From assembly GCA_013349825.1 (NCBI GenBank), contig DUYW01000001.1:1-57863 (forward strand): a stretch of DNA of 57,863 nt. The letters are read 5' to 3'. The DNA is from Gammaproteobacteria bacterium (GTDB lineage: Bacteria > Pseudomonadota > Gammaproteobacteria > GCF-002020875). Position numbers and translations under genes: made by a program. The notes under the pieces were generated by a model. That model was not told the origin of the DNA. It ran no database searches and saw only the letters and a program-made list of their open reading frames with translations. Position 1 is the first letter of the stretch; each line of letters opens with the position of its first letter. Shown one piece after another: positions 6,762 through 57,863 of this stretch.

Positions 6762-6771
6762 AACAAACCTC

Positions 6772-6793
6772 CTATTCTCGGACAGTTACCTAG
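6772..6793 (-). repeat. solo terminal arm of the 166-bp repeat
   Basis: 22 bases that match the left arm of the repeat at 35183-35205 in 19 positions, in inverted orientation (plus strand begins CTATTCTCGGACA and ends ACCTAG). No partner arm or repeat body was found next to it. It fills the leader between a candidate promoter and the ribosome binding site of the 63-residue ORF. Confidence 0.6.
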
Positions 6794-35114: not shown

Positions 35115-35182
35115 GGGGGGAGGATAGTACCATAGAGTGACTGATTTCAAGACCTCACACTGACCTATTCCATAGCAAATCG

Positions 35183-35348
35183 TCTAGGTGGCTGCCCGAG
35201 AATAGAAGTCGTAGCGAGGGGAAGCTGATTTGAGGCAGATTTTGTCATCATTTGAGGCGAATAGTTCTATTTAACGAAAAGGATGGGAAAATATGGCCAA
35301 ATTCAGCTTTTCCGCAGCAGGCTCTCTATTCTTGGACAACCGCCTGGG
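35183..35348. repeat. 166-bp hairpin-forming intergenic repeat, copy 1
   Basis: Bounded by 23-base inverted arms: left 35183-35205 (starts TCTAGGTGGC, ends GAGAATAG), right 35326-35348 (starts CTATTCTTGG, ends CGCCTGG). Seventeen of 23 positions are complementary and most differences are transitions that keep G-U pairs in RNA. A second, inner pair (AAGCTGATTTG near 35223, CAAATTCAGCTT near 35298) extends the hairpin. The left 100 bases recur at 57758-57863. No ORF is inside. It fills the gap between the REC-GGDEF-EAL gene stop and ribE. It looks like a MITE or ERIC-like element. Confidence 0.8.
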
Positions 35349-57757: not shown

Positions 57758-57863
57758 TCTAGATGGTTATCCGAGAATAGAAGTCGTAGCGAGGGGAAGC
57801 TGATTTGAGACAGATTTTGTCATCATTTGAGGCGAATAGTTCCACTATTTAACGAAAAGGATG
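57758..57863. repeat. 166-bp hairpin-forming repeat, copy 2 (cut by window end)
   Basis: From the left arm (57758-57780) to the last base it follows copy 1 with very few changes: small differences in the arm, one G/A change, and a 3-base CAC insertion near 57843. The right arm lies beyond the window. It begins 19 bases upstream of the outer NtrC site of glnA. Confidence 0.85.

Follow-up and report, generated by a model that had tools for sequence, protein, structure and literature searches.

The window, a stretch of 57,863 nucleotides that makes up a whole contig (G000:C1:1-57863), contains an intact imperfect palindrome (covariance-model match, E 1.1e-38) and a second, incomplete copy of it. 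The neighbouring genes encode riboflavin synthase, a GGDEF/EAL response regulator and glutamine synthetase, and all lie on the - strand. The second copy shares 92% identity over query positions 14-116 and stops at 57863 because the contig itself ends inside the repeat. The + strand of the intact copy folds into one long hairpin with a minimum free energy (MFE) of -74.2 kcal/mol (shuffled mean -45.0, sd 4.2; z -7.0; 0 of 200 shuffles as good), whereas the - strand is less stable (MFE -49.9, z -4.0). In both copies the more stable strand runs antisense to the adjacent genes, ribE and glnA. The original prediction, which described two near-identical copies and a unit folding as a single long hairpin, is borne out on both points. 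Its statement that differences between the arms preserve G-U pairing holds for the + strand, the - strand folding more weakly. The limits it gave (35183-35348) need correction at the ends, as the unit also takes in a CTAG at its left tip and a decayed form, CTGG, at its right (Table 1). The solo tip listed in Table 1, which brings the traces of the family in the window to three, appears to be a relic or a deletion derivative of another copy.

Table 1. Parts of the hairpin element and related features in the window.
Feature	Position	Strand	Basis
Intact hairpin element (putative MITE)	35182..35348	+ (strongly folding strand)	match to covariance model R1; MFE
CTAG, putative left copy of the duplicated target site	35184..35187	.	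sequence; CTAG at both tips family-wide
Left terminal inverted repeat GTGGCTGCCCGAGAATAGA	35188..35206	+	matches TIR type of the L294 IS1182-family element
Conserved internal-loop strand GTAGCGA	35211..35217	+	near-invariant alignment columns; unpaired or weakly paired in consensus
Conserved apical hairpin TGAGGCGAATAGT...CTATTTAACGA	35253..35277	+	family alignment and consensus; missing in 106-bp variant
Conserved internal-loop partner strand CCGCAGCAG (family form CCGCAGTAG)	35312..35320	+	alignment, consensus
Right terminal inverted repeat	35325..35343	-	sequence, pattern search
CTGG, decayed right CTAG target copy	35344..35347	.	sequence compared with other copies
Second copy, cut by contig end	57758..57863	+	92% identity
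Solo tip with CTAG, CCTATTCTCGGACAGTTACCTAG	6771..6793	-	pattern match, 1 mismatch

Copy number, distribution and conserved structure

The genome from which the window comes (2.87 Mb, 274 contigs) yields 44 BLAST matches, or 40 when four opposite-strand self-matches are left out, so the family is not limited to the two copies first noticed. About half of the matches touch a contig end, as expected because the repeat breaks the assembly. With up to 2 mismatches allowed, the solo tip (TGTCCGAGAATAGA) matches the same genome 102 times and the reversed control pattern 17 times. The original prediction suggested looking for a transposase gene flanked by the arms; in this genome, the 1.8-kb arm pair in contig C13 encloses ordinary genes. 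In genome G325, there are about 70 element-end matches per strand. A 106-bp subfamily that lacks the apical portion of the hairpin recurs at several sites in G325 (L352, L366, L360, L372, L346, L349, L338), hence copying can proceed without that portion.

Full-length homologues, 73-88% identical, are present both in further members of the genus and beyond it, in other families. The covariance model finds the ~169-nt unit in 92 of 370 Gammaproteobacteria, representing 75 of 272 genera, and the length of its matches is near-constant (168-172). In a phylum-wide sample the element is present in 34 of 397 genomes, other classes included. Hosts named in a search with the apical hairpin as pattern include Nitrosomonas, Pseudomonas, Methylomonas, Sedimenticola, Candidatus Thiodiazotropha, Marinobacterium, Motiliproteus, Pseudomaricurvus, Salinisphaera and Thiohalomonas, and one homologue is located on a Pseudomonas plasmid. 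Phage or plasmid cargo was rejected as an explanation, given no phage record, a single plasmid and no viral contig with the core motif. Chance or a longer ordinary duplication was likewise rejected on the basis of the fold z-score, the many copies in the same genome and the full-length homologues elsewhere.

An alignment of 26 sequences gave a hairpin consensus of 64 pairs, the copy sets used being biased to the best-scoring matches. Compensatory changes, in which both sides have changed and pairing is kept, are seen in 45 of the 64 pairs. Paired cells amount to 96.1%; shuffling the 3' letters lowers this to 80.0%, and sliding the partners to 49.5% at most. The features conserved throughout the family are the CTAG at both tips, the internal loop formed by GTAGCGA and CCGCAGTAG, and the apical hairpin. 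MITEs and IS1182 are already known. For the hairpin family, Rfam returned no match of any kind, and no earlier description was found in the open-access literature, including that on IS1182 with MITE or CTAG. The family is nevertheless present in about a quarter of the Gammaproteobacteria sampled (92/370) and repeats often enough to fragment draft assemblies.

Element ends, CTAG target and relation to IS1182

The tips of the hairpin, CTAG followed by GAGSCTGTCSGA, are identical to the termini of insertion sequences of the IS1182 family. ISAzo1 and its relatives share with the hairpin the CTAG target, the tip pattern CTAG-(C/G)AGnCTGTCSGA and the occurrence of two types of terminal inverted repeat (TIR). 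Tips of the first type (GTCGGACTT in short; CTAG followed by CAGCCTGTCGGACTT) are found in ISAzo1 and in plasmid and chromosomal IS1182 elements, the intact ones being bounded by CTAG. Tips of the second type (GTCCGAGAA; CTAG followed by GAGGCTGTCCGAGAA) are those of the present genome and of an IS1182-family element at L294 in genome G111. The ends of the latter read GGAGGCTGTCCGAGAA, and its transposase matches the NCBIfam IS1182 model with 384 bits, where 270 is the cut-off. TIR identity between the hairpin and IS1182 is limited to the outer ~15-18 bp. In contrast to the hairpin, IS1182 elements are ~1.5-1.8 kb long, with a DDE transposase gene and no 169-nt hairpin core. On plasmid pMPC6-328K, the right CTAG of a hairpin doubles as the left terminus of an IS1182 relic (CTAG followed by CAGCCTGTCGAACTT).

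The target was read from sites with and without an element. When the two flanks of one plasmid IS1182 are put together with only one CTAG between them, the resulting sequence is present in 114 plasmid records, in 109 cases at ≥99% identity; this insertion sequence thus duplicates CTAG (4 bp). Proven for this one member, the duplication parallels the presumed target behaviour of the hairpin and, the ends being the same, supports the left CTAG of the window copy as a target copy. Sites lacking the hairpin were also found within its own genus, where the flanks are too diverged for the target to be read, and closer congeners were used for this reason. In G112 the sequence runs ...CACCACATCCGCTAG into the element, and the sites without it read ...CACCACATTCGCTAG and ...CATCCGCTAG in the congeners G302 and G218; the CTAG here supplies the stop codon of the gene. 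At the best site, the right CTAG of the hairpin has decayed to CATAG.

Stop codons are a recurrent location. The TAG of a tip serves as the stop of the neighbouring gene in 57 of 201 elements. Counted by tips, this is 60 of 402 (15%), while control readings of CTAG from the flanking sequence give 54 of 1,178 (4.6%; p 1e-15), using open frames of at least 100 codons and simple ORFs as gene calls near the copies. Part of this excess must reflect survival, because insertions inside genes are lost. The window contains 26 CTAG, where base composition predicts ~222. Stop-codon targeting explains how a mobile element can build up between genes at little damage.

The element has the features of a MITE, as originally predicted: it is ~169 bp long with no coding capacity, its copies are dispersed over ~40 places in one genome, its terminal inverted repeats are common to an autonomous transposon (IS1182), and a target is documented by the hairpin's empty sites in relatives and by the CTAG duplication in IS1182. 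A length of 169 bp is too short for a transposase; the hairpin element could only be an IS1182 derivative and not a full member. IS1182 relatives and the hairpin co-occur in 20 genomes (11.2 expected, p 0.002). Considering ends, target and co-occurrence together, the hairpin is most likely mobilised in trans by an IS1182 transposase. A search of the host genome's assembly detected no IS1182 transposase closely similar to the query, and PF13751 gives a single sub-threshold match on a short contig; the helper is missing, unassembled or lost. Many-copy genomes such as G325 contain only decayed IS1182 pieces, with no IS-sized pair of identical ends seen in G325. Among the largest clusters listed for 1,002 ORFs around copies, none was a transposase cluster. 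Other bacterial MITEs (reviewed in PMC10969869, a text that mentions neither CTAG nor Ypal; MITEAba12, PMC6382973) are similarly gene-less, with inverted ends, a duplicated target and presumed mobilisation in trans. What sets the hairpin apart from them is an interior that shows conservation and covariation in many host families.

Strand asymmetry and the role of the hairpin

Family-wide, the non-Watson-Crick cells of the stem comprise 375 G-U and 44 A-C when read on the + strand. To remove the bias of + strand folding, the - strand was used to derive structures as well, and G-U still exceeds A-C (101:59 and 182:54). Pairs common to the structures of both strands give 100:24 and 177:37 (277:61 together). 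This excess on strand-neutral pairs indicates that the fold of one strand is selected, and the selection on single-strand structure put forward in the original prediction is therefore upheld at the family level, by covariation and strand asymmetry.

Mutations private to single resident copies present another picture. On strand-balanced pairs, the private mutations of G325 full, G325 short and G000 together comprise 25 G-U and 18 A-C, without significant bias, in a small set of 43 transitions. Earlier counts were 19:19 and 7:10, and the private mutations include 56 pair-breaking transversions. The orientation of copies is random with respect to genes, with 26 sense and 34 antisense at stop codons and 26 versus 29 in co-directional gene pairs. 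Taken together, the G-U excess in the family, its weakening in private mutations and the random orientation argue against a host regulatory role; the same contrast argues for a step in propagation that involves the folded + strand. The simplest reading is that structure would matter when a copy spawns others, and would count for far less, or for nothing, once the copy has landed. Contrasting older changes with private ones in this way tells host use from element use as the reason for a conserved hairpin, and the approach may be extended to ERIC, NEMIS, YPAL and other such families, over whose function there is a long-standing debate.

The explanation we favour, with a probability of about 0.7, is that the hairpin is an IS1182-type MITE moved in trans, its one-strand structure being selected during propagation and not for host control. 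According to this model, a ~169-bp non-autonomous element with IS1182-family ends would be moved by IS1182 DDE transposases, which would insert it at CTAG and duplicate those 4 bp. Many surviving copies would be located at stop codons because CTAG is rare in genes and insertion at ...C-TAG spares the stop. The rest of the element would form a long hairpin with conserved internal loops, selected on one strand during propagation, with selection weak or absent once a copy has landed. The hairpin would thus serve the element's own spread via a folded single-stranded + strand, and not the host genes. We infer the single-stranded intermediate from the strand asymmetry, which fits RNA and single-stranded DNA alike. 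A more specific version, in which a DDE-type (IS1182) MITE spreads via a folded strand of fixed polarity whose internal loops are read by the transposase or a host factor, is only a tentative proposal. To our knowledge, a single-strand or RNA step has not been described for DDE-type MITEs; as a point against the model, DDE transposases are not known to require a folded strand.

Palindromes are prone to hairpin-templated correction, which would yield double changes. The element could then be an ordinary IS1182 MITE whose palindrome is held by template-switch (quasi-palindrome) correction, structure and strand being irrelevant to its spread. Mirrored tip variants do occur (GTGGTT/AACCAC, GAGCTT/AAGCTC), and deletion derivatives show that the hairpin is unstable. 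However, such correction would neither make G-U outnumber A-C at least 4-fold on one strand of the element nor retain internal-loop motifs across families, which makes this explanation unlikely.

A hairpin cotranscribed as an ERIC/NEMIS-like RNA element, acting through RNase III processing or mRNA stability and selected at the level of the host, would account for the very stable RNA fold, the strong covariation with tolerance of G-U, and the intergenic location near gene ends. It is improbable in view of the lack of orientation bias at stop codons, the position of the window's stable strand antisense to ribE and glnA, and private mutations that lack a G-U bias (25:18) and include many structure-breaking transversions. 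ERIC and NEMIS have TA-type targets, compared with CTAG for the hairpin family. ERIC (RU-1; 127 bp) and NEMIS/Correia (106-158 bp, PMC2267715) resemble the hairpin as dispersed intergenic palindromes able to form long hairpins, but differ in length and ends, on a comparison of their descriptions. Two proposals of the original prediction consequently find no support: membership in an ERIC/NEMIS-like family, given the different tips, target and sequence, and a role as processing site or regulator of ribE or glnA, given the random orientation to genes and private mutations that do not keep + strand pairing. The Yersinia palindromic sequences (YPAL/RU-2) are intergenic, 167-169 bp long, and form a long stem-loop with a reported strong structural signal (PMC2267715, PMC2759123). 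They come close to the hairpin in length and general shape, but their tips differ and their predicted fold has extra side hairpins. Homology was rejected, as the family profile (nhmmer) does not match the published 168-bp RU-2 sequence.

Least credible is movement by a Y1 (HUH) REP-associated transposase reading single-stranded hairpins, with the IS1182-like ends coincidental or secondary: such an enzyme would impose strand-specific hairpin selection, the internal loop has conserved GTAG motifs, and a REP-associated tyrosine transposase-like gene (340 aa, L294 2123-3145) adjoins the IS1182 element in L294, but this transposase type, common in Gammaproteobacteria, is unassociated with the hairpin (19 common genomes, 15.9 expected, p 0.20), the window's own genome yielded no example of it, and the element's tips and target fit IS1182. 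REP/REPIN sequences with their RAYT are, like the hairpin, palindromic extragenic repeats, and their hairpin is recognised as a single strand. REP/RAYT membership was rejected: REP/REPIN units measure 20-40 bp and carry a terminal GTAG or CGTC tag (PMC3733652), whereas the hairpin has 169 bp, CTAG tips and no co-distribution with the RAYT type tested.

Structural variants and nested repeats

Mini-derivatives of 34-48 bp (e.g., CTAGGTGGCTGTCCGAGAATAGAGAGCCACCTAG) occur at L070 (~740-775), L074 (~648-700) and in the L003 flank (~1465-1500). They keep one arm and both CTAG tips, and look as if they had arisen by interior deletion between short direct repeats. At L129 (3268-3599) and L143 (6776-7057), paired hairpin elements stand head to head with one CTAG common to both, as expected if one element had inserted into the target copy of the other. 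The hairpin copy at L394 1233-1500 (G112:C16), at a site common with G302, has two extra stretches, one in the arm and one in the apical region, possibly a nested mobile element. A separate repeat of ~117 bp (GGGATGTAGAAGAAG...TTCTACATCCC), located at the L045 flank (query 912-1030 in the search of genome G082), has about 20 copies in G082, one of which hosts a hairpin element.
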